DNA of 30,145 nucleotides from Lachnospiraceae bacterium UBA5902 (GTDB lineage Bacteria > Bacillota > Clostridia > Lachnospirales > Lachnospiraceae): positions 2,419 to 32,563 of the forward strand of contig DJEI01000005.1 of the NCBI GenBank assembly GCA_002431865.1, in the 5' to 3' direction. Both the position numbers and the translations under genes were made by a program. Under the pieces are notes generated by a model. The model had not been told where the DNA came from. It did not search any database and saw nothing but the letters and a program-made list of their open reading frames with translations. How positions within the stretch are numbered: position 1 is the first letter of the stretch; each line of letters opens with the position of its first letter. Below are positions 1,423 to 28,419 of this stretch, piece by piece.

Positions 1423-3807
1423 TTATACCACTCCGAATGCGAGTCCAACTGCATGCACCAGAAATGCAACAACCCAGGCAATCAGACATTGCACAATGAC
1501 AGTAACCACTGCCGCTTTCGTGCCACCCATTTCCCGCTTCACTGTCGCAATGGCTGCCACACACGGTGTATAAAGCAACGTAAAAATCAAGAATACCATT
1601 GCTGTAAATGGAGTAAATAACTTAGCTACCTGCGTCACGTCACCACCAAGCAGAACCGTAAGCGTCGATACCACGCTCTCTTTCGCTGTAAATCCCGTAA
1701 TCAGCGCCGTCGACACTCTCCAGTCTCCGAATCCAAGCGGCTTGAAAATTGGTGTGATCAGACTTCCGATCAGGGCAAGCATACTCTGATCTGCCGAAGC
1801 AGCAACATTGAACCTCAGATCAAAGGTCTGCAGGAACCAGATGATGATCGAAGCAAGGAAGATAATCGTAAATGCCTTCTGAATAAATCCCTTTGCCTTC
1901 TCCCAGATCAGGTGCAGCACACTTTTCGCTGATGGCAGCCGGTAGTTCGGCAGCTCCATAACAAAAGGTACTGGTTCTCCTTTAAATTTTGTCATCTTTA
2001 AAATGAGCGCATATATCACTGCACACACAATCCCGATCAGATAGAGTCCAACCATTGCAAATACACGATACTGCCGCTGCACGAATGCGCTGATCATAAG
2101 TGTGTAGATTGGCAGCTTCGCACTACAGCTCATAAATGGTGTAAGTAAGATTGTCATCTTCCGGTCACGTTCACTCGACAGTGTCCTTGTCGCCATGATC
2201 GCCGGCACCGAACATCCAAATCCGATCAGCATCGGCACGAAGCTTCTGCCCGATAAACCAATTTTACGAAGCGGCTTATCCATGACAAATGCAACCCGCG
2301 CCATATATCCGGTATCTTCCAGAATCGAAAGGAAGAAAAACAGGATCACGATTGTAGGGAGAAAGCTGATGACACTTCCGACACCCTGACAGATACCATC
2401 CACCACAAGGGACCGCACGACCGGGTTGATCTGCGCAGCGATAAGTCCCTTGTTGATCCATCCGATAACTGTATCAACGCCAAGTGCCATCACATCGGAC
2501 AGCCATGCGCCAAGCAGGCTGAACGTCATGGCAAAAACTATCGCCATAATTCCGATGAAGCACGGAATTGCTGTATATTTTCCAGTCAGGAGTTTATCTA
2601 TCCGGACACTTCTGCGATGTTCTTTACTCTCATGTGGGCGCACGACCGTCTTCTCACACAGTTTTCCAATAAACTGAAACCGCATATCTGCGATTGCCGC
2701 TTCTCGATCCAGCCCTGTTTCTTTCTCCATGACTGACACGATCTGCTCAAATGCTTCCTTCTTATCTTCCGCAAGGTGTAATGTCTCTTCGATTGGTGCA
2801 TCCTTCTCGATCAGCTTCGTTGCAGCAAAACGGACAGGAAGATCTGCTTCCTTCGCATCATTTTCAATCATATGTGCAACTGCGTGGATGCAACGGTGCA
2901 CCGCTCCAACCGGATCCTTATCATCCTTGCTGTCCGGACAGAAATCAATTCGTCCTGGCGGTTCATGATATCTCGCGACATGCATTGCATGACTCACCAG
3001 TTCGTCAATACCTTCATTTTTCGCAGCTGAAATTGGTACCACAGGAATTCCAAGTATCTGTTCCAGCTCATTTACACGGATTGTGCCGCCATTTGCCCGC
3101 ACTTCATCCATCATATTCAGTGCGAGCACCATTGGAATTCCCAGTTCCATGAGCTGCATCGTCAGACACAGATTACGCTCTAAGTTCGACGCATCCACAA
3201 TATTGATGATGCCACTTGGTTTGCCCTCGATCAGAAATTCCCGCGTCACAATTTCCTCGCTGGAATACGGGGACAGGGAATAAATGCCCGGAAGGTCTGT
3301 CACTGTTGCCTCCGGGTGATTCCGAATCGTACCATCCTTCCGGTCAACCGTCACACCTGGGAAGTTGCCGACATGCTGATTCGCACCTGTTAACTGGTTA
3401 AAAAGTGTCGTCTTACCACAGTTCTGGTTGCCCGCCAACGCAAATGTCAGCTTACCCCCCTTCGGAACTGCCGTCTTCTCATCATGTATATGGGTAGGAT
3501 CTGCCTGTCCCAATTCTCCAACCCCCGGGTGTTCAATCGACTCATAGCGCACATTCTGTTTTGGGGCTTCCGCTTCCTTTTCATGCACATGATCCACATC
3601 TATTTTCTGTGCCTCACTCAATCGCAGCGTAAGCTCATATCCGCGCACCTTCATCTGTACAGGGTCACCCATTGGCGCAATCTTCTGCAGAGTGACTTCT
3701 GTTCCCGGCGTCAAGCCCATATCCAGAAGATGATGCCGCAAGGCACCTTCGCCGCCGACCGCCGTGATATAAGCGCTCTGCCCCGGCTGTAATTCATCCA
3801 TTGTCAT
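1423..3807 (-). CDS. feoB: FeoA-FeoB fusion, ferrous iron transporter
   Basis: A single 794-residue protein joins an SH3-like FeoA domain (residues 1-72, MTMDELQPGQ to LRLSEAQKI) through a linker of about 40 residues to a full FeoB. The FeoB GTPase shows G1 GNQNCGKTT at 126-134, G3 DLPG at 171-174 and G4 NMMD at 231-234. It is followed by the helical GDI-like region and a polytopic membrane domain ending near the C-terminus, so nothing is missing. FeoB imports Fe(II) across the cytoplasmic membrane; FeoA normally acts as a separate partner, here tethered. The frame is open further upstream, but the ATG at 3807 has a GGAGA ribosome site 9 nt ahead and starts exactly at the FeoA domain. The strong promoter at 3847-3875 fits this start. 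No FeoC-like gene follows. Confidence 0.95.
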   Translation of the reverse strand: MTMDELQPGQSAYITAVGGEGALRHHLLDMGLTPGTEVTLQKIAPMGDPVQMKVRGYELTLRLSEAQKIDVDHVHEKEAEAPKQNVRYESIEHPGVGELGQADPTHIHDEKTAVPKGGKLTFALAGNQNCGKTTLFNQLTGANQHVGNFPGVTVDRKDGTIRNHPEATVTDLPGIYSLSPYSSEEIVTREFLIEGKPSGIINIVDASNLERNLCLTMQLMELGIPMVLALNMMDEVRANGGTIRVNELEQILGIPVVPISAAKNEGIDELVSHAMHVARYHEPPGRIDFCPDSKDDKDPVGAVHRCIHAVAHMIENDAKEADLPVRFAATKLIEKDAPIEETLHLAEDKKEAFEQIVSVMEKETGLDREAAIADMRFQFIGKLCEKTVVRPHESKEHRRSVRIDKLLTGKYTAIPCFIGIMAIVFAMTFSLLGAWLSDVMALGVDTVIGWINKGLIAAQINPVVRSLVVDGICQGVGSVISFLPTIVILFFFLSILEDTGYMARVAFVMDKPLRKIGLSGRSFVPMLIGFGCSVPAIMATRTLSSERDRKMTILLTPFMSCSAKLPIYTLMISAFVQRQYRVFAMVGLYLIGIVCAVIYALILKMTKFKGEPVPFVMELPNYRLPSAKSVLHLIWEKAKGFIQKAFTIIFLASIIIWFLQTFDLRFNVAASADQSMLALIGSLITPIFKPLGFGDWRVSTALITGFTAKESVVSTLTVLLGGDVTQVAKLFTPFTAMVFLIFTLLYTPCVAAIATVKREMGGTKAAVVTVIVQCLIAWVVAFLVHAVGLAFGVV

Positions 3808-3846
3808 CTGTAATCGTCTCCATCTCCACATAGATATATTTTGATG

Positions 3847-3875
3847 ATTATACAATCTCAATAATGGTTCGTCAA
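3847..3875 (-). promoter_or_regulatory. feoAB promoter with overlapping inverted repeat
   Basis: Minus strand: TTGACG (3875-3870), 17-nt spacer, TATAAT (3852-3847). The -35 box lies inside the inverted repeat GTCAA-TCA-TTGAC (3871-3883), a plausible operator for an iron-responsive repressor; no regulator can be named from the site alone. Confidence 0.75.
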
Positions 3876-3946
3876 TCATTGACCACTTATTATATTTTTT
3901 AACAATAAATACGACTGTACAATTTCTTTTTTTCGGATGCATTATG

Positions 3947-12301: not shown

Positions 12302-16068
<3,767 letters not shown>

Positions 16069-16205: not shown

Positions 16206-17249
16206 TTACTTTTCAAGAAATGTATCGACATTATCCGCATCTACCTTGCGGTACTGTGACATATAGTAGATGTCATCCTCAAGCCCATATCCTTTGATAT
16301 CGCTTCCCTGAAATACCGCAACCGTCAAAAATGCAATCATTCTCGCCTGATCTTCTTTGTCATTGTAGACCGTTCCCTGCATCGTGCCAGATTCGATTGC
16401 CTCCAATGCATCGGGCAGACCATTGACGCCAAAGATAATCGGTCGTTCCTCTTCCTTATATCCGGCATTTTTGTATGCCTCGACGGCCCCAAGCGCCATG
16501 TCATCGTTGTTGGACAATATCAGTTCAATGTCAGAACCATACTGATCAATCAGCTGGCTCATCCGGTTTTCCGCCTGCGCACGATTCCAGTCCGCAAACT
16601 GATAACTGAGCTTTTCTAATTCTACGTCATTTTCAATCATGGTCTTAACCGACAAGTCCGTCCGGCTGATGGCATCCTGATGTCCGGCTTCGCCCTCTAA
16701 GAGCACATACTGGATTTTCCCATCACCATTCTTATCGACCTCCGGGTGGTTCTTGATATATTCTGCGGCAATCTCTCCCTGCATCTCGCCGGACTGCGCC
16801 GCATCACAGCCAACATAGAACAGCTTATCCCATTGCAGCAGATCCTCCTGCACCGGCTCCCGGTTAAAGAAGATAACCGGGATGTCGTTCTGCCGTGCCA
16901 TGCGGATGATATTCGACGGTGCTGTACGATCGACTAGATTCACACATAAAACATCGCATCCGGCATCAATCATTTCCTCGACAATCTTATCCTGCTCCTG
17001 CTGGTCATTGTCCCCACTTCGTACGGAAACAATCACGTTCATTGTGTTACTCTCTTTCGCTTTCAGGTCGTTTTTCAATATATCCGTCATCGCATTGATA
17101 AACGGATCATCCGGCGTATACGTCACCACGCCAACACGCAGCGTATGATCTGTTTTCTTTATAGAGTTTCCACATCCCACCAGGGAAATGGCAAGCGCAA
17201 GCACACACAAGAGTGCTATTCTATTGTTCTTTCTGTTTCTTCTACTCAT
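16206..17249 (-). CDS. Galactose/glucose-binding lipoprotein, MglB-like with standard topology
   Basis: 347 residues. The lipobox LVGC places the lipidated Cys at 26. The fold is the normal type I order: VVTYTPDDPF at 41-50 (Asp48 and Phe50 for the sugar), PVIFFNREP with Asn129, calcium loop DKNGDGKIQ from Asp172, His190-Asp192-Arg196 in GHQDAISR, Trp221, and SNND with Asn248. The usual Asp in the FGVDA motif is Asn276 here (FGVNGLPDA), and GTVYND supplies Asn296. It should sit on the outer membrane face and bind galactose or glucose. The start overlaps the end of the upstream anchored binding protein by 8 nt. Position at the end of the two-component operon, apart from the mgl transporter genes, suggests a sensing role rather than bulk uptake; that is inference. 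Confidence 0.9.
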   Translation of the reverse strand: MSRRNRKNNRIALLCVLALAISLVGCGNSIKKTDHTLRVGVVTYTPDDPFINAMTDILKNDLKAKESNTMNVIVSVRSGDNDQQEQDKIVEEMIDAGCDVLCVNLVDRTAPSNIIRMARQNDIPVIFFNREPVQEDLLQWDKLFYVGCDAAQSGEMQGEIAAEYIKNHPEVDKNGDGKIQYVLLEGEAGHQDAISRTDLSVKTMIENDVELEKLSYQFADWNRAQAENRMSQLIDQYGSDIELILSNNDDMALGAVEAYKNAGYKEEERPIIFGVNGLPDALEAIESGTMQGTVYNDKEDQARMIAFLTVAVFQGSDIKGYGLEDDIYYMSQYRKVDADNVDTFLEK

Positions 17250-18216
17250 ACGAATACAAAAACCTTTCTATCTCATCCGAGAACAAATCTTTCTTATAGA
17301 TAACCTTTACCTCTTTCTCATGGCTCTTCAATGTATAAAATGTCCGCGTGAGTTTTTTCGCAATCTCCTCAACGCTTTCATAACCAATGCTGTATCCATC
17401 CGGGACAACCAGACATTGCACCTGCCCTGCATCAAGCAGCGCAATCGATTTCATGCTCGTACCGACACCATAGATCTTCGCATCCCTGTACATGCCATTT
17501 TCCGCCTGTTCGCCCAGTACATCCAGGGCTTGTGTATCCATTACCACCATATAATCGACGGACTCCTGTACATCGACAACCGCACAGATATCGGTATCGC
17601 TTTCCTCATTATATTCCCATGCAATCTCACAATCCTGTTCTGCCAGTGCATCCTTCAGTCCCTGAATACGATTCACGCTCGCCTCCGTCTTAGACCGTCC
17701 GACGATCACGCCAATCCGCTTTCCCTTCAGACTGTCTTCATCCTGTGTGATAAGCTGTGTACCAAGAGTGTATCCAATCTGATAGTTATCCGGCTTGACT
17801 GTTGCATACCCGCTTGCCTCCGGTTGTTCGCCTGTATAAACATCCTCTGTCAGAAGTACAAATGGCTTCTTCTGCTCGCCGAGCCAATCTAACATGTCCT
17901 TTGTATCTATGCCCGGTGCCGGACACAGGATAAATGCATCCACATCATTTTCCAGCTGTTCCTCAATAAGCGCCCGCTCGTCCTGCGCTCCCGCAATATC
18001 GTCTGTATTACAGATGATAAGATGCAGATTGTTATTTTTCGCAGACTGCTTCAATCCGTTAATCACACCCTCCCAGCGGGTATCGCCGGAATTCTGCAGG
18101 ATTATCGCCACGCGCTTCTGTGGAACATCCTCCCGGAAAATTTTGTGTACGAAGAAAGCCGCAAGCAGAATCAAAATAAGTTCCGCAATGAGGAAAGTTA
18201 CTTTATTTCGTTTCAT
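17242..18216 (-). CDS. Membrane-anchored RbsB/LacI-like substrate-binding protein
   Basis: 324 residues. An uncleaved N-terminal helix (about residues 7-23, no lipobox) is followed by a periplasmic-binding-protein-like domain beginning KRVAIILQNSGDTRWEGVINGL, with ICNTDD, ILCPAPGID, IGVIVGRSKTEASVNRIQGLKDAL and IYGVGTSMKSIALLD in the order of family 4 sugar-binding domains. The sugar cannot be deduced. It overlaps the histidine kinase gene by 14 nt upstream and the MglB-like lipoprotein gene by 8 nt downstream, so all are translated from one message. Such accessory binding proteins often present a ligand to the sensor domain of a neighbouring kinase, the role suggested here. Confidence 0.85.
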   Translation of the reverse strand: MKRNKVTFLIAELILILLAAFFVHKIFREDVPQKRVAIILQNSGDTRWEGVINGLKQSAKNNNLHLIICNTDDIAGAQDERALIEEQLENDVDAFILCPAPGIDTKDMLDWLGEQKKPFVLLTEDVYTGEQPEASGYATVKPDNYQIGYTLGTQLITQDEDSLKGKRIGVIVGRSKTEASVNRIQGLKDALAEQDCEIAWEYNEESDTDICAVVDVQESVDYMVVMDTQALDVLGEQAENGMYRDAKIYGVGTSMKSIALLDAGQVQCLVVPDGYSIGYESVEEIAKKLTRTFYTLKSHEKEVKVIYKKDLFSDEIERFLYSYE

Positions 18217-20194
18217 CTGTCACTCTCCCCTTTCTATAGCTCTGCGTCTCCAGCTGCTGCCGATTCTCCTCCGTAAACGGAATCGCCGGAATGTGAATCA
18301 CAATCCTCGTGCCCTCATCTGCTTCGCTGTAAACCTCCAGACCATATTCATTTCCAAACATCAGCTGAATCCGGTTGTGTACGTTAATAAGTCCCACACC
18401 AGAGCCATGCTTCGGTACTTTGTTGTTGTCCTTAAGGATATTTTCAACTATATCCTCACTCATTCCCATACCATTATCCTCGACGGAAAGATAGATATCG
18501 TCGCCCTTTTTCTCACCGCGTACCGTGATCATGCCGCCATCATCTTCATCCATATTTCCAACGCCATAATAAATCGCATTTTCCAGAATTGGCTGCACGA
18601 TGAGCTTGACCGTACAGTAATTCTTGATCTCCTCGTCAATATCAAACTCCACCTGAAACCGCTCTTTATAGCGCACAAGCTGAATATTCATATAGCTTCG
18701 GCTATGCTGCAGCTCGTCTGCAATACGGATCACCGTTCTGCCCTTTGACAGACTGATCCGAAGCAGCTTCGCAAGCTCAGAAATCATAAGCACCGCTTCC
18801 TTATTCTTCTGCGCCTCGACCATCCATGTGATCGATTCAAGTGTATTGTACAGAAAATGCGGATTGATCTGGCTTTGCAGTGCATCCATCTCGCTCTTTC
18901 TACGCTCGGTCTGCTCGCGGATAATCTCCTGCATCAGATCCTCAATCTGTTCATAGGATTTCTTGACTGAATATCCAAGGTGCCGGATCTCAGAAGAACC
19001 ACCAATATAGATGTCTGTATCTCCACCAGCCTCGTATGCCTTGACTGACTCATTCAGCCGCAGGATTGGGCGGGAAATCTTTCTCGATATGATCCGGTTT
19101 ACTTCAAGCAGCATCATCATCAAAATGAGGATTGCCGTGATAATATAATACCGGAACCGGTTGATACTCGTCGTCTGCACACGATCCGGAATTACACCAA
19201 CCAACTTCCAGCCCGTATATGCCACACTGCTTACCACGACATTTCCGTGGCTTCCATTTAAGGAAAGCTTGTAGGTTCCATCCTCTAACTTCGCGACCTT
19301 CTCACAGTCCTCTGAGAAATATCCGCGGTCAATATCTGCCTGCCGTGGATGATAGATCATCTGTCCATCACGGCTGCACAGGTAATAGTAAATGCCATTT
19401 GAGGATTCATTGATCCGCTTCATCGTGTTCGAAATCACGGAGTATTTCATATCGACCAGCAGCACACCGCTACGCGGTGTCTCTCCGTCGTTGATGTCCA
19501 CCGAACGGCTCAAGGAGATAACCCAATAATACCGGTATGTGCCATCGTCAAACAGATTCTGGATATGCGGCACAGAGAAATGTACATTCTCGATGTCCGC
19601 CTCTGCGTTCTCATACCAGTCCTGTTCCCATGCCTTTGCACCCTTCTTACGCTCCGAAACCGGCTCTGCAGCTACCTGTGCACCATCATTATCATACAAT
19701 GCCATACTCTGAATCTGAGCCGCGTTGATCTCATAGAGCAGACCGAACTGGCGATTGAAATTTTCACTGGAGATATCATTTTCCTGAATAATATTATAGT
19801 TGACCGCATTCGTGATCTGCCGGATATTCAGCAGATCTGCATCAAGTTTATCCTTTGTGCTTTCGACCATGCTCTCTGCATTCGTGACAGCCGTCTGCTT
19901 CATCGCCATCTTGAACCGGTTGTACAGAAGCAGACCAATCGTGATCGTCGTGATCAGTGTAAGCGCCGTAAGTACCGCCATAATAATAGACTGGATATCC
20001 AGACCGATAAATTTTCCATGGCGAATCCAGCCCTGCCGCTTCATAAAACGATGGGTTTTCGACTGCACTTTATTCACTTTTATCTTCTTAGTCCGCTTCT
20101 TCAATGTGCAAAATCCTCTGATTACTGTATTGCCGTTATGACTGCAACTGGCTGAATCTGTGTTACTATCGATGGATTCATATGATTGGCTCAT
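18203..20194 (-). CDS. YesM-type sensor histidine kinase
   Basis: 663 residues. Cytoplasmic N-terminus, membrane helix at about 68-91, an extracellular Cache-like sensor domain to about 345, second helix 349-370 and a HAMP-like linker. It then has the His_kinase domain with His446 in QINPHFLYNTLE, N-box ILENAIYYG (about 537-545), DNGMGM at 573-578 and the glycine box GSGVGLINV near 597. This set belongs to the LytS/YesM class. The start is uncertain: the ATG at 20194 has no good ribosome site, and a TTG at 20104 has AGAGG ahead of it; both lie before the first helix. The gene is 21 nt after the response regulator and overlaps the next gene by 14 nt. Confidence 0.92.
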   Translation of the reverse strand: MSQSYESIDSNTDSASCSHNGNTVIRGFCTLKKRTKKIKVNKVQSKTHRFMKRQGWIRHGKFIGLDIQSIIMAVLTALTLITTITIGLLLYNRFKMAMKQTAVTNAESMVESTKDKLDADLLNIRQITNAVNYNIIQENDISSENFNRQFGLLYEINAAQIQSMALYDNDGAQVAAEPVSERKKGAKAWEQDWYENAEADIENVHFSVPHIQNLFDDGTYRYYWVISLSRSVDINDGETPRSGVLLVDMKYSVISNTMKRINESSNGIYYYLCSRDGQMIYHPRQADIDRGYFSEDCEKVAKLEDGTYKLSLNGSHGNVVVSSVAYTGWKLVGVIPDRVQTTSINRFRYYIITAILILMMMLLEVNRIISRKISRPILRLNESVKAYEAGGDTDIYIGGSSEIRHLGYSVKKSYEQIEDLMQEIIREQTERRKSEMDALQSQINPHFLYNTLESITWMVEAQKNKEAVLMISELAKLLRISLSKGRTVIRIADELQHSRSYMNIQLVRYKERFQVEFDIDEEIKNYCTVKLIVQPILENAIYYGVGNMDEDDGGMITVRGEKKGDDIYLSVEDNGMGMSEDIVENILKDNNKVPKHGSGVGLINVHNRIQLMFGNEYGLEVYSEADEGTRIVIHIPAIPFTEENRQQLETQSYRKGRVTDETK

Positions 20195-22603: not shown

Positions 22604-24256
22604 TTACTTCTTCTGAACATACTTCAGACAGTCAAGTGTTACAGCGGCAAGGATGATAATACCTTCGAAGATGAACTGAAGGTTTGTATCAATACCGAGG
22701 ATTGTCAGAGAATATGTAAGGGATGTGAAGATCAGTACACCAGTTACAACACCGGAGATCTTACCAATACCACCTGTGAAGGATACACCACCTACTACGC
22801 AGGCTGCAATGGCGTCCATATCCCAACCTTGTCCATAAGCGGCACTACCGGAACCAACCATACGGTTACACTCAAGCCATGAGCCGAATCCGTAAAGGAT
22901 ACCAGCTAAGATGAATGCACCAAGTGTTACCTTGAATACAGAGATACCGGATACGGCTGCTGCCTCAGGGTTACCACCAACTGCGTAAAGGTTCTTACCA
23001 AATGTTGTCTTGTTCCAGATGAACCATACAACTACGATTGCCACAATTGCCCAAAGAATGATCGTTGGGAATCCGCCAAGGTTCGGAATGAACATGTTTG
23101 GAATGCTGGAATCAATTGCTCCGAAAGATACACCCTTGGTTGCGTATGTTACAAGTCCAAAGATGATCAGCATGTTCGCCATTGTCGAAATGAATGGATG
23201 CATCTTGTACTTTGCCATGAAGAAACCTGCAATACTTGCAAACAATGTTGTAAGTACGATACATGCAACCAGTGCGATGATGGCTCTTCCACCTGCCGGA
23301 ATTCCTGTGAAGTCGAAGATGTGACCAAATACACCACCGGTATTGACTCCACTATGCATGATAATGGTTGCGGTTACCATACCCATACCTACCATACGTC
23401 CAATGGAAAGGTCCGTACCTGTTAACAGGATCAGTCCGGCAACACCCAGTGCCAAGAACATACGTGGGGAAGCCTGCTGTAAAATATTTAAAATGTTTGT
23501 CAGTGTCAAAAGCTGTGTATGCTTTACAATCGGTGTGATGATACACAGTGCAATGAAGATGAGTAAGATTACAATGTACAGACCATTCTTATACAGGAAC
23601 TGTGTTGTATTGAATGTGTACTTGTAGTTTTCTACCTTCTGTGCCTGCTTCTGTCCAAATGTATACTTTGACATACGGAGCAGATCGATTAGATGGAACT
23701 TATGTGCAAATGCATCATGCTTTCTGTCCTTGATCTCCTGCAGCTTGGACTCATGTGTCATCTGTGCATCGAACAGACGGTTACGGTATACATACTTCTC
23801 ATCCTTGATTTCCTCAGAATCGGAAAGCTTTGCAAGCGCCTGCTCATGTTCTGTCTTGATGGTTGCTACGATCTTCTCATAAGAAGCGTTCTCTGCTGCC
23901 TTTTCTGCCTCACAGCTTGCAACAACCTTCTCATAGTAGTCGCTCTTATAATGCTTGGAGAGATAGCTCTCTGCATCGGAAATGAGCTTGAATACCTTAT
24001 CCTTGTTTGCAGATTCTACGGATTTTGCTCTCTCTAACTCTGCCTTATCCTTTGCAATAATCTTTGCTTTCTCTTCCTTTGTTAAATTCTTATCTTCTTT
24101 TGCAATTGCGATATGGTTCTTTAAGCCGCGAACCTTGTCAGATCCATCTACACGAAGTGCATCAATCTGTGCCTGTATTTTTCCTACATATTCATCAATC
24201 GGCTTCAAGAGGGCTGCCTCTGCATCAGCCGAAAGGATCATACTTGTATCTGCCAT
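22604..24256 (-). CDS. mglC: MglC-like galactose ABC transporter permease with long N-terminal extension
   Basis: 550 residues, far longer than the usual 330-340 of MglC. The membrane permease (about residues 218-550) is typical of CUT2 transporters: ILLTGTDLSIGRMVGMG, HPFISTMANMLIIFG, the coupling segment NPEAAAVSGISVFKVTLGAF, and GWDMDAIAACVVGGVSFTGGIG. Ahead of it lie about 215 residues that are highly charged, rich in Lys/Glu/Ala and without membrane helices, probably cytoplasmic coiled coil (for example KEDKNLTKEEKAKIIAKDKA). The ATG at 24256 has AGAGGAG eight nt upstream; a TTG two codons earlier is less likely. It is the last gene of the operon, 18 nt after mglA. The extension's role is unknown; it would face the ATPase. 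Confidence 0.9.
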   Translation of the reverse strand: MADTSMILSADAEAALLKPIDEYVGKIQAQIDALRVDGSDKVRGLKNHIAIAKEDKNLTKEEKAKIIAKDKAELERAKSVESANKDKVFKLISDAESYLSKHYKSDYYEKVVASCEAEKAAENASYEKIVATIKTEHEQALAKLSDSEEIKDEKYVYRNRLFDAQMTHESKLQEIKDRKHDAFAHKFHLIDLLRMSKYTFGQKQAQKVENYKYTFNTTQFLYKNGLYIVILLIFIALCIITPIVKHTQLLTLTNILNILQQASPRMFLALGVAGLILLTGTDLSIGRMVGMGMVTATIIMHSGVNTGGVFGHIFDFTGIPAGGRAIIALVACIVLTTLFASIAGFFMAKYKMHPFISTMANMLIIFGLVTYATKGVSFGAIDSSIPNMFIPNLGGFPTIILWAIVAIVVVWFIWNKTTFGKNLYAVGGNPEAAAVSGISVFKVTLGAFILAGILYGFGSWLECNRMVGSGSAAYGQGWDMDAIAACVVGGVSFTGGIGKISGVVTGVLIFTSLTYSLTILGIDTNLQFIFEGIIILAAVTLDCLKYVQKK

Positions 24257-24274
24257 CGCCAAAACTCCTCTCTA

Positions 24275-25783
24275 TTACAAATATTTCGCGCTAAGCTTTA
24301 ATAATTCTTCCTGATTTGTCTCCTTCGTATTTACGATACCTGCCAGATGTCCATTTGACATAACGCCAATACGATTTGTGATTCCGAGGATCTCCGGCAT
24401 CTCAGAGGAAACAACGATAATCGTCTTGCCCTGCTTTGCCATGTTGATGATCAACTCGTAAATCTCATATTTTGCTCCAACGTCGATACCTCTTGTCGGA
24501 TCATCCATCATAAAGATGTTTGGAGAACGCTCCAGCCATTTACCGAAGATTACCTTCTGCTGGTTACCGCCAGACAGGTTTGCGATCATATCATCCGGTC
24601 CCATACATTTTGTATGCATGACCTTGATCTCCTCGGCTGTCGCACGTACCATGTCGTCGTTGGAAAGTGCGATTCCGCTCTTATAATGCTTCATGTTTGC
24701 AATGGTTGTGTTAAATGTGATATCTGCCTTTAAGAACAGACCGTTTGCCTTACGTTCCTCTGTGATCAGGGCAAATCCATGATCCATCGCATCCTTTGGA
24801 GAAGCGAAGTTCATCATCTTACCATTGTAGAGCACGTTTCCGGCTGCTCTTGTACGCATACCAAATATCGTCTCAAGAAGCTCTGTACGACCTGCACCGA
24901 CCAATCCATACAAGCCAAATATCTCACCCTTCTTCACATCGAAGGAGATATTCTGGAGCTTCGGTGCATACTTTGTTGAAAGATTCTGTACGGAGAGTAC
25001 TGTCTCTCCCGGTGTATTATCCACTGGTGGGAATCGGTTATCCAGAGACCGGCCTACCATGGCGGATATGAGTTCGTTCATGTTTGTATCTTTGCTGTCC
25101 TTCGTCATAACAAGACTACCGTCCCGCAGTACGGAGATCTGATCACAGATCTCGAAGATCTCATCCATCTTATGGGAGATGTAGATGAGGGAGATTCCCT
25201 GTGACTTCAGCTGACGCATCATCTTGAAGAGCTTTGCAACCTCCGGTGCAGTCAGGGATGAAGTAGGCTCATCCAATACAATTACTTTGGAATTGTACGA
25301 AATTGCCTTTGCGATCTCACACATCTGACGTTTTGATACAGACATCTTCTTCATCGGCTGTGTTAAATTAACTGTGATTCCAAGCTTTCTGAAAAGATCA
25401 GAAGCTTCCTTCTTCATTCTGCCCTCATCGACTACACCAAGTGAATTCTTTGGGTAACGACCGAGGAACAGGTTATCGATTACATTTCTCTCTAAGCACT
25501 GGTTCAATTCCTGATGTACCATTGCGACTCCATTTTCAAGGGCGTCCTTTGGTCCAGAGAAATTTACTTCCTTGCCATCTAATACGATTGTTCCTTCGTC
25601 CTTCTGGTAGGTTCCGAAGAGACATTTCATCATTGTCGATTTTCCGGCACCATTCTCACCCATAAGTCCCATGATAGAACCTGGCTTCACATTCAGGTCA
25701 ATATGGTTAAGAACCTTGTTTCTTCCGAATGATTTACTCATGCCATGAATCGATAAGATGTATTTATTCTTATCATCTGCCAT
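24275..25783 (-). CDS. mglA: MglA-like galactose ABC transporter ATP-binding protein (tandem ABC domains)
   Basis: 502 residues with two ABC domains, the normal CUT2 size. The first has Walker A GENGAGKST, Walker B VIVLDEPTSSL and a His switch (YISHKMDEIFEI). The second has a degenerate P-loop GLVGAGRTE without the lysine, a good signature NLSGGNQQKVIFGKWL, and Walker B FMMDDPTRGID, in which Asp replaces the usual catalytic Glu. A degenerate P-loop in one half is common in this family; the Asp is less so. The protein drives galactose import with the MglC permease at the cytoplasmic membrane. The ATG at 25783 has GGGAAG upstream. It lies 90 nt after mglB, across a terminator-like hairpin, and is followed closely by mglC. 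Confidence 0.93.
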   Translation of the reverse strand: MADDKNKYILSIHGMSKSFGRNKVLNHIDLNVKPGSIMGLMGENGAGKSTMMKCLFGTYQKDEGTIVLDGKEVNFSGPKDALENGVAMVHQELNQCLERNVIDNLFLGRYPKNSLGVVDEGRMKKEASDLFRKLGITVNLTQPMKKMSVSKRQMCEIAKAISYNSKVIVLDEPTSSLTAPEVAKLFKMMRQLKSQGISLIYISHKMDEIFEICDQISVLRDGSLVMTKDSKDTNMNELISAMVGRSLDNRFPPVDNTPGETVLSVQNLSTKYAPKLQNISFDVKKGEIFGLYGLVGAGRTELLETIFGMRTRAAGNVLYNGKMMNFASPKDAMDHGFALITEERKANGLFLKADITFNTTIANMKHYKSGIALSNDDMVRATAEEIKVMHTKCMGPDDMIANLSGGNQQKVIFGKWLERSPNIFMMDDPTRGIDVGAKYEIYELIINMAKQGKTIIVVSSEMPEILGITNRIGVMSNGHLAGIVNTKETNQEELLKLSAKYL

Positions 25784-25802
25784 ATCTCTACTTCCCTTTC
25801 TT

Positions 25803-25839
25803 AAAAAGAAGGGTATCAATTTTTAACTGACACCCTTCT
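25803..25839 (-). terminator. Intercistronic hairpin with U-run between mglB and mglA
   Basis: AGAAGGGT-TC (25807-25817) pairs with GA-ACCCTTCT (25829-25839) with one mismatch, and the minus-strand transcript continues TTTTT. It can act as a leaky terminator or 3' protector, making more binding protein than transporter, a usual pattern in such operons. Confidence 0.7.
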
Positions 25840-25873: not shown

Positions 25874-27139
25874 TTACTTATTAAGAAGTGATGTGTAAGA
25901 TGCTGCGTTATCTGTCTTAACCATGTTGATTGCGAATGCATCGTACTCGCCTGGGTTACCAAGACGGTTTGTAATGTTAGACTCTGTCTGACCATCACCA
26001 CCGATGTAATCAACCTTGAGGTTCAGAAGATCATCGTAGTTCTGAAGAAGTGGCTGGTATGTTGAGCTTAAGAAGTTATCGGAAGCGTTGTAGATATCAA
26101 GCCATACCTTCTTCTCCGGACTCTTGCCAGAGTCGAGCTGGTGTGAAACCTTGTCATAAACCTTTGTTGAGTCTGTGAAATCCTGGTAGTTCTCTGCTGT
26201 TACTGCGATATTCAATGCGTAGTAAGATCTCTCTTCTTCTGAGTATCTGTAATCAACGCCCTCGTCAAGCTTGTTGCCAGCTTCATCTGCTGTACCGATA
26301 CCTGTATCTACATCTACGCCATCAAGTGCGTTACGAAGAACGCGGAGTGTCAGGTAAGCCTGAACGTCTGCATGCTGTGAAATTGTTCCACCGTAGCCTT
26401 CTGCGATAGCTGCTACTGCATCGCTGTTTGCATCGTATCCAAATGTAGGAACCTTGTTGTCCTTTGCCCAAGCGTTAAACATTGACATTCCCATACCATC
26501 GTTATTAGAAACAACTACATCAATCTGATCACCGAAAGAAGCTGTCCATGTACCGATTGCGTTACCTGCTGTTGCTGCATCCCATGTAGCACCTGCAGAG
26601 TTCTTCATCTCCTGTGAAGCAAGCTCACGGATTGTATATGTCTTTCCGTCTACATCAAGCGTTGCATCCTGTACAACCTTTGCAGAGCCATCTACGTTTG
26701 TACCTGCCGGTGAAGAATCGATAGCTCCGTCTGTCTCAACACCTGTGCCAAGTGCGGAACGAACACCTCTTGTACGTGCGATGGAATCGTTATGTCCGAT
26801 ATCACCGATTGCAAGTACGTATCCGATTACGCCATCACCGTTACGGTCGATGGTTGCTGCGTTCTTCTTGATGTAATCAAGTACCATCTCACCCTGAAGC
26901 TCAGCACCCTGATTTGCATCGAAACCTACATAGTAAGTATCTTTGTTGAAGTTAAGGGCTGTCTTGTCAAGCTCTCCAGTTGATGAGTTGGATGGCTGAC
27001 GGTTGTACCATACGAGCGGCTTATCCTTGTTTGCTACTCCACTGCTTGATGCAGAACCACCACCGGATGATCCACATCCTACCATTGACAGTGCCATTGT
27101 TGCTGCTGCGATCACAGCTAAGATTTTTTTCTTCTTCAT
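25874..27139 (-). CDS. mglB: Galactose-binding lipoprotein MglB, apparently circularly permuted
   Basis: 421 residues with signal peptide and lipobox SMVGC (Cys22). The mature part opens with KPLVWYNRQPS (Asn46), which matches the middle of ordinary MglB (PVVFFNKEPS). It continues in normal order: YYVGFD, calcium loop DRNGDGVIG from Asp98, His116-Asp118-Arg122 in GHNDSIAR, Trp186, SNND with Asn213, and FGYDA with Asp236. After the usual C-terminal strand (YALNIAVTAENYQDF, 307-321) a linker of about 20 residues leads to VWLDIYNASDNFLSS (345-359) and AFAINMVKTDNAASY (401-415), which match the normal N-terminus (VTIYKYDDNF, ALAINLVDPAAAG). So the first beta-alpha units sit at the end. All main sugar contacts are kept except a late Asn, here Gln255. 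GGAGG precedes the ATG. Confidence 0.9.
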   Translation of the reverse strand: MKKKKILAVIAAATMALSMVGCGSSGGGSASSSGVANKDKPLVWYNRQPSNSSTGELDKTALNFNKDTYYVGFDANQGAELQGEMVLDYIKKNAATIDRNGDGVIGYVLAIGDIGHNDSIARTRGVRSALGTGVETDGAIDSSPAGTNVDGSAKVVQDATLDVDGKTYTIRELASQEMKNSAGATWDAATAGNAIGTWTASFGDQIDVVVSNNDGMGMSMFNAWAKDNKVPTFGYDANSDAVAAIAEGYGGTISQHADVQAYLTLRVLRNALDGVDVDTGIGTADEAGNKLDEGVDYRYSEEERSYYALNIAVTAENYQDFTDSTKVYDKVSHQLDSGKSPEKKVWLDIYNASDNFLSSTYQPLLQNYDDLLNLKVDYIGGDGQTESNITNRLGNPGEYDAFAINMVKTDNAASYTSLLNK

Positions 27140-27408: not shown

Positions 27409-28362
27409 TTATATTTTTTTCATCTTATATTTTTTCCGCTGTCCCTGTATTTCTGTAAAGCCAAATGCCAGAACTCCGACCATTCCAAACGCCATCATTT
27501 TGATAAGGCTTTCATAATAGGTATCCAGATTACCAGACCACCTCATAAGCTCCTTCGCATGTACAAAACAGCTTTGGAACGAAGAAGCTCTATAGTAGTA
27601 GTCTGAAAGTTTAGACGCCTGTATCGCCATTGCCATATCTACCCGGAATGCCAGATACAACCATGCGGCTGACACCGCAACACACAACAGAAAACTTATA
27701 ATCGACAGCTTTTCACCCTTCCACTTATATCCATAGATCACCGCAGCTCCCATCGCGAGTCCGGCATAGCTTGACACGAATCCAATACGTGCGATCAGAA
27801 AAATCAACAGCGCACCCAGAACGCCACCGCCAATCGCACCGAGCAGACCGAGTGCATAATTCTCCCGCACAACATAATCATCTTCCCGGTTCAGCTTCAA
27901 CGCATATTCCGTCATCTTCGCAGATTCCTCATTTAAAAAGGAATAGCCATCCTCCACCTGATAGACGTCCGTCGGTCCCTGCACGCCTCTGGCATCACAA
28001 TTATAATATTGATATCGTTCAAATTGTGTGATCATACCTTCCAGCCGATTCTTGATCAACTGCACATTCTTTTTTGTGCCACCACGAATCGGAACATACA
28101 CCGCAATACTAAATCCTTTCGGTATGATCCTGCCGCCTCTTGGAAGTACTGCGCGCATCGTTCCCCACACATCTACAGACGCCGGTGTCTGATCGTTGGA
28201 AACTGAAAATGCAACCATTATCATTTTTTTACCGGAACCATTACCCGGTTTCACTACATATGTATATCCCCGGTACACGCCATGCAGCTGGCTTTTCATT
28301 CCTGTCCGCGTTGCCTGCAGCTCCTCAGCTAATTTCGTTAATATTCTTCTATTCGATGCCAT
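27409..28362 (-). CDS. Membrane protein of unknown function
   Basis: 317 residues. The N-terminal 170 residues are soluble, with a stretch GYTYVVKPGNGSGKKMIMVAFS and a YYNCDARGVQGPTDVYQVEDGYSFL segment. They are followed by three closely spaced membrane helices (roughly 176-195, 198-216, 222-244), a loop and a fourth helix near 290-306, ending in a lysine-rich tail. I do not recognise a family. The ATG at 28362 has GGGGAGG nine nt upstream; the frame runs nine codons further to a GTG without a site. It starts 57 nt after the ABC-F gene with no terminator between, so co-transcription is likely but not proven. No clear terminator is seen after it. Confidence 0.75.
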   Translation of the reverse strand: MASNRRILTKLAEELQATRTGMKSQLHGVYRGYTYVVKPGNGSGKKMIMVAFSVSNDQTPASVDVWGTMRAVLPRGGRIIPKGFSIAVYVPIRGGTKKNVQLIKNRLEGMITQFERYQYYNCDARGVQGPTDVYQVEDGYSFLNEESAKMTEYALKLNREDDYVVRENYALGLLGAIGGGVLGALLIFLIARIGFVSSYAGLAMGAAVIYGYKWKGEKLSIISFLLCVAVSAAWLYLAFRVDMAMAIQASKLSDYYYRASSFQSCFVHAKELMRWSGNLDTYYESLIKMMAFGMVGVLAFGFTEIQGQRKKYKMKKI

Positions 28363-28419
28363 CCGGCAAACACCTCCCCTGTTTGACACTTATGTCTCAT
28401 AATATTCCCTTTTCGTTTT

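Follow-up and report, generated by a model that had tools for sequence, protein, structure and literature searches.

In a 30,145-nucleotide stretch of the genome of Lachnospiraceae bacterium UBA5902 (contig DJEI01000005.1, positions 2,419 to 32,563; hereafter the window), the minus-strand gene at 25874..27139 appears to encode a lipid-anchored substrate-binding protein of an mgl (CUT2) glucose/galactose ATP-binding cassette (ABC) transporter. The protein would belong to the circularly permuted subfamily of TpMglB-2 (Type Ic/Cluster Bc), with the usual Venus-flytrap sugar site rebuilt; from the sequence comparisons and the predicted fold, we give this reading a probability of roughly 0.93. The permutation is genuine but it is not new, because a 2016 paper solved TpMglB-2 (Tp0684) of the syphilis spirochaete Treponema pallidum and identified it as a circularly permuted, glucose-binding protein that closes on its ligand (PMC4990184, cited here and below from excerpts). 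The original prediction, made from the window sequence alone, had placed the gene correctly and proposed a natural permutant with a rebuilt sugar site, which is supported by the alignments, profiles, predicted fold and solved homologue; its claim to novelty, that no natural permutant was known in the family, fails against the 2016 paper, which also reports Gram-positive gut relatives. The present analysis adds to that account (i) evidence on the homology of the moved tail, (ii) a linked permease with an extension, and (iii) a conserved seven-gene module.

The chain order, homology, predicted fold, contact residues and operon were all established by computation. As predicted, the signal peptide and lipobox are kept: the lipobox SMVGC ends at Cys22 and is followed by a Ser/Gly-rich linker and then by WYNRQP (residues 44-49), the counterpart in the alignment of FFNKEP at about residue 89 of mature E. 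coli MglB. The segments DIYNASDNF and AINMVKTDNAA align to the MglB N-terminus, also in agreement with the prediction. The gene and its parts are as follows.

25874..27139, minus strand: mglB, permuted form (P0001), predicted 421-residue glucose/galactose-binding lipoprotein, circularly permuted
27074..27139, minus strand: signal peptide and lipobox, residues 1-22; Cys22 is the lipid anchor predicted from the sequence
26114..27031, minus strand: core, residues 37-342, corresponding to E. coli MglB from mature residue ~84 to the C-terminus, including insertions and the linker leading into the tail
25877..26113, minus strand: moved tail, residues 343-421, corresponding to N-lobe strand-helix units 1-3 and containing D354 and F356

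With the tail set before the core, the local alignment score of the permuted MglB rose from 233 to 254 against the window paralogue at 16206-17249 (P0002), which none of 500 tail shuffles reached in either of two runs, and from 231 to 257 against E. coli MglB (1 of 500 shuffles); the comparison proposed in the original prediction was decided in favor of the restored order. The tail alone gave no significant pairwise signal against P0002 (score 31, shuffle mean 30.7, 233 of 500 shuffles reaching it), and profiles were therefore used. The tail profile aligned to the N-terminal strands of the sensor-type ordinary profile (38-109; score 27.5 versus a mean of 13.5 and a maximum of 25.4 in 300 column shuffles) and of the transport MglB profile (62-138; 22.0 versus a mean of 12.9 and a maximum of 21.2 in 300 shuffles). 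With the order restored, the two profile alignments covered 297 and 295 columns, compared with 220 and 217 in the native order. Some alignment rows run to match ends rather than to start codons, and one (L010) has frame upstream of its likely start; the transport rows include a different binding protein, L124_3, which was kept in the profile set, the tree and the contact counts. We take these comparisons as moderate evidence that the tail is homologous, and not merely analogous, to the N-terminus of ordinary MglB.

In Pfam, the tail is covered by PF18610 (residues 342-412, E 9.4e-41, 138.3 bits versus a gathering cut-off of 36.8), and the permuted protein misses the cut-off of the NCBIfam MglB equivalog model NF011924 (89.1 bits versus 420, in two stretches). 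The paralogue at 16206-17249 has the ordinary order, with PF13407 positions 1-256 on residues 39-315. A family-wide difference in order was rejected, since this paralogue and E. coli MglB both follow the ordinary order; the paralogue, offered in the original prediction as proof on this point, is indeed ordinary, yet it excludes only a permutation of the whole superfamily, and a large subfamily is permuted.

The ten sugar contacts of E. coli MglB (Table 2 of PMC4990184) map to D354, F356, N46, H116, D118, R122, W186, N213, D236 and Q255 of the permuted MglB, and all nine residues named in the original prediction are among them. Nine of the ten are identical to the E. coli residues; the only exception is N256, replaced by Q255, and Gln is also found in TpMglB-2. 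Among 339 permuted rows, which include many close relatives and leave out proteins of at least 460 residues, N46, H116, D118, W186, N213, D236 and F356 are invariant (339/339), R122 and Q255 are each kept in 338, and D354 in 337. The place of Q255 is mostly Asn in ordinary rows: 44 of 48 sensor rows (48 of the 62 ordinary rows, the 14 named P being left out) and 13 of 14 transport rows, the odd one being L124_3. In P0002, nine of the ten contacts are likewise identical to E. coli, and D236 is replaced by N276.

The AlphaFold2 prediction supports the tail as a part of the N-lobe, and the structural check put forward with the original prediction found no separate domain at residues 343-421; a separate C-terminal domain was rejected on the predicted fold and the structural match to the solved homologue. 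The chain would be anchored via Cys22, enter the N-lobe at the strand preceding the sugar contact N46, pass through the C-lobe and the hinge, and return through an extra (fourth) hinge segment. The chain would end with the three strand-helix units with which ordinary MglB begins; they would complete the N-lobe sheet and place D354 and F356 in the cleft, so that the usual Venus-flytrap site would be rebuilt. The closed, sugar-loaded protein would then hand its sugar to MglC/MglA. The anchor, the sugar specificity in Lachnospiraceae bacterium UBA5902 and transport itself are what we infer from these features.

Several results weigh against this reading. The gain from restoring the order is weaker for P0246, a protein 100% identical to the TpMglB-2 query: 294 to 315 on E. 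coli MglB (11 of 500 shuffles reaching it) and 249 to 269 on P0002 (3 of 500). In hhalign, the tail by itself, as a profile of 11 of the 13 non-redundant permuted rows, has low probabilities of 22.5% and 4.1% (E 0.00093 and 0.01, single comparisons), and for this reason the tail homology is graded moderate and not strong. In the window operon, the matches to the NCBIfam models for MglB, MglA and MglC all fall short of the cut-offs. Three of the five AlphaFold2 models have a mean predicted local distance difference test score below 65, and the prediction is not fully independent, because TpMglB-2 structures may be in the AlphaFold2 training data; the entries are 5jx2, 6bgc and 6bgd, the last two, by their titles, a later W145A variant, one with glucose.

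For TpMglB-2, the 2016 paper reports a topology with a fourth hinge crossing and a ligand-induced conformational change, proposes the name Type Ic/Cluster Bc, and finds this topology in spirochaetes and Gram-positives, many of them gut commensals (PMC4990184). Under the rule used there, more than 90% coverage by TpMglB-2 with matching N-termini, the window protein falls within the group: phmmer pairs residues 37-419 of its 421 with residues 19-385 of the 387 in the solved chain. The first three N-lobe strands lie at the C-terminus and the MglB sugar contacts are conserved, as in that class, and a BLASTP alignment with a Treponema saccharophilum protein covers residues 3-419.

Downstream of the permuted mglB, the following genes lie on the same strand.

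24275..25819, minus strand: mglA, ATPase of the mgl transporter; top NCBIfam model MglA, 669 bits (cut-off 828)
22604..24262, minus strand: mglC, permease with N-terminal extension (P0004); top NCBIfam model MglC, 283 bits (cut-off 386)
23618..24262, minus strand: MglC N-terminal extension, residues 1-215, with no Pfam match and with predicted long helices
20216..21832, minus strand: response regulator with receiver and AraC-type DNA-binding domains
18203..20194, minus strand: sensor histidine kinase with dCache domain
17242..18216, minus strand: second periplasmic-binding-type protein (PBP2), PF13407, ordinary order
16206..17249, minus strand: ordinary-order MglB-like lipoprotein (P0002), proposed sensor
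12396..15440, minus strand: beta-galactosidase of family GH2, LacZ type; a plausible target pathway

The gene order is thus mglB, mglA, mglC, response regulator, dCache histidine kinase, PBP2 and ordinary MglB, with the beta-galactosidase farther on, and it begins with the single-strand mglB-mglA-mglC arrangement of a CUT2 mgl ABC transporter operon. This arrangement recurs in relatives. In 80 named loci (the best 80 of 441 candidates, and therefore leaning towards close relatives), one open reading frame matches P0001 at more than 500 bits and spans at least about residues 35-419 in every case (80/80); mglA lies next to it in 78, the DNA ending there in the other two (L039, L042), and mglC is present in all 71 loci with room for it. 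Among the matches listed for the TpMglB-2 query, which returned at least 120 proteins, PF13407 and PF18610 occur together in 120/120.

The survey of Lachnospiraceae suggested in the original prediction found the permuted mgl order in relatives, with PF18610 in 32 of 299 sampled genomes of the family, 4 of 391 of the class and 2 of 398 of the phylum (the draws overlap and include the own genome); it was seen in 0 of 14 well-known control genomes. Five of 37 genomes of the genus match P0001, and the other 32 show neither protein at the threshold. In four of the five, the permuted protein is accompanied by a second but partial match, in a frame of 353-355 residues about 9 kb off on the same contig, like that of the window paralogue; the fifth (G723, 71% complete) gives partial matches only. 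No relative of the permuted MglB was confirmed on viral contigs, where 36 stretches fit a pattern. In a core tree of 60 rows, including 28 of the 62 ordinary representatives, the 13 permuted rows (non-redundant at 80%, from 339) form one clade (98/95) with the neighboring paralogue outside it. The clade splits into TpMglB-2 with two relatives from the TpMglB-2 search and ten P0001-side rows, and its exact placement is uncertain, with long branches elsewhere in the tree, L124_3 being flagged as one. All seven module genes are also found on a 252-kb Agathobacter rectalis plasmid (NZ_CP143948.1, L142), with IS91, integrase and MobA/MobL genes about 11 kb upstream or less; the record is typed non-mobilizable, and the finding therefore speaks for a plasmid home, not for transfer.

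Two side observations concern MglB relatives. Outside the 339 rows, a divergent permuted MglB (57% identical, with D118 replaced by Ile) stands as an orphan in genome G1056 (L145:7639-11027). It adjoins GGDEF and HD-domain proteins encoded on its own strand, the 14 kb read contain neither mglA nor mglC, and the binding protein may here have been put to a new use in cyclic di-GMP signalling. Three MglB-related database proteins (P0013 and P0099, permuted; P0127, ordinary) carry internal tandem duplications that may be assembly errors; as permutation intermediates they were rejected by eye, because the repeated part is internal in each, and in none of them does an N-terminus follow an intact C-terminus.

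The tail could have another origin: an MglB core may have lost its N-terminal strands and gained a C-terminal segment of a different gene, which came to occupy the equivalent position in the fold by convergence. The 2016 paper left the origin of the TpMglB-2 tail open, at 13% identity, and raised this possibility (PMC4990184), with which the absence of a pairwise signal against P0002 agrees; a donor from the same superfamily would also be compatible with the profile tests. We nevertheless consider such a gain unlikely, as two ordinary profiles both show the tail profile in collinear alignment with their N-terminus, scoring above all 300 column shuffles each time, and the D-x-F sugar-contact motif and the NMV/NLV segment occupy matching places. 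An assembly or annotation artefact, or a decayed gene, might be suspected in a fragmented assembly (111 contigs, 87.69% complete), but it is refuted by the relatives, namely the single open reading frame of all 80 named loci and the domain pair in all 120 listed matches, and by the solved crystal structures, so that practically no weight is left to it.

It is also conceivable that the permuted MglB is a sensor and not a component of the transporter. Two-component genes do follow downstream in the same direction, and the G1056 orphan stands beside GGDEF and HD proteins, with neither mglA nor mglC in the 14 kb read, but in the named loci mglA follows wherever the DNA continues and mglC wherever there is room, and a better candidate for sensing is the ordinary-order paralogue, which lies at the module's kinase end. 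Since E. coli MglB serves both transport and sensing (PMC4990184), one protein may also do both. A purely sensory role is accordingly very improbable, and the permuted MglB is best read as the binding protein of the transporter.

Of these findings, the linkage to the permease most deserves further attention. In 70 of the 71 permuted loci with room, mglC is a frame of at least 500 residues, the only exception being L056, where it is split over two overlapping frames; lengths are 556, 554 and 567 residues in L140, L142 and L146. The MglC of Treponema saccharophilum plasmid pTS2 has 562 residues and is 45% identical over residues 23-552, extension included. In ordinary mgl operons, MglC has 339-409 residues in 11/11 cases and matches P0004 only from residue 204-222 on. 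These operons are those of E. coli and ten same-phylum loci from nine genomes (L127-L137), drawn from 15 with an MglB-model match (G548, G501, G320 and G516 were left out); two further stretches of G207 (L138, L139) have no mglC. The G1056 orphan, with no mglC in the 14 kb read, is the one permuted MglB that breaks this linkage. The extension is predicted to form helices at 62-145 and 149-196 and is balanced in charge (39 K/R versus 39 D/E), with no Pfam match and no hydrophobic segment; a profile search gave no solved structure related to MglC at E 0.001, and a narrow search of open-licence PMC gave no paper joining MglC, permease, N-terminal extension and coiled-coil. As a tentative idea, the permuted MglB and the ~215-residue extension might have arisen or spread together in one transporter lineage across Lachnospiraceae and Treponema, where the moved anchor may alter docking and the extension may add a cytoplasmic regulatory or scaffolding contact. 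The same pattern would be expected from common descent of the operon alone.

The remaining module genes point to sensing. Of 63 loci with room, 48 have the response regulator, histidine kinase, PBP2 and ordinary MglB following in that order; the remaining 15 are rearranged, partial (some running off the stretch end) or without the run, and among them is L056, whose otherwise complete order is masked by split frames. Adjacent genes for a substrate-binding protein (SBP), a histidine kinase and a response regulator, as in SBP-based three-component systems, are present in the window. Because of the analogy with CuaDSR and XylFII-LytS, which are such systems (PMC10384115, cited from excerpts), the ordinary-order paralogues beside the kinase and regulator are probably sensors. 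We infer a division of labor in which the ordinary-order protein senses sugar for the kinase and the permuted protein serves transport; kinase, regulator and paralogues would then together sense sugar and regulate the operon. The ordinary-order protein seems more divergent than the permuted one (62 versus 13 representatives at 80% identity, from 173 versus 339 rows collected differently).

Elsewhere in the window, a 326-residue protein encoded upstream of mglB (27409-28389, minus strand) has hydrophobic stretches in its second half and no Pfam or NCBIfam match; it is matched at E 1e-10 in 2 of 103 loci, and the window's own DNA (L001) spans the gene. A single 839-residue open reading frame at 1423-3942 (minus strand) carries both FeoA and FeoB domains. 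Promoter and terminator scans of the window were at chance level (12 found versus 12.9 expected, and 3 versus 2.9).

A natural permutant with many relatives, a solved homologue and ordinary paralogues in one gene cluster offers a good opportunity to ask what chain order costs or gains a binding protein. TpMglB-2 shares the permuted order, the sugar site and an end-to-end structural match with the window protein at 41-43% identity; it differs in having Asn where the window protein, like E. coli, has Asp (D354), and in lacking ~14 residues found between 134 and 156. A 21-kb stretch of the Treponema saccharophilum plasmid carries the operon without an adjoining run of response regulator, kinase, PBP2 and ordinary MglB; the T. 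pallidum locus was not compared. Pfam PF18610 (Peripla_BP_7) models only the moved tail (71 positions), and a literature search for its Pfam name returned no paper. E. coli MglB has the same fold, nine of the ten sugar contacts and the partners mglA and mglC, whereas its N-lobe strands 1-3 are N-terminal, N256 stands for Q255, and its MglC lacks the extension. CuaABC/CuaDSR resembles the window in that a transport SBP is joined by a second one, whose gene adjoins those of a histidine kinase and a response regulator (PMC10384115); the window differs in the permuted order of its transport SBP and in having two SBPs of ordinary order with the kinase.
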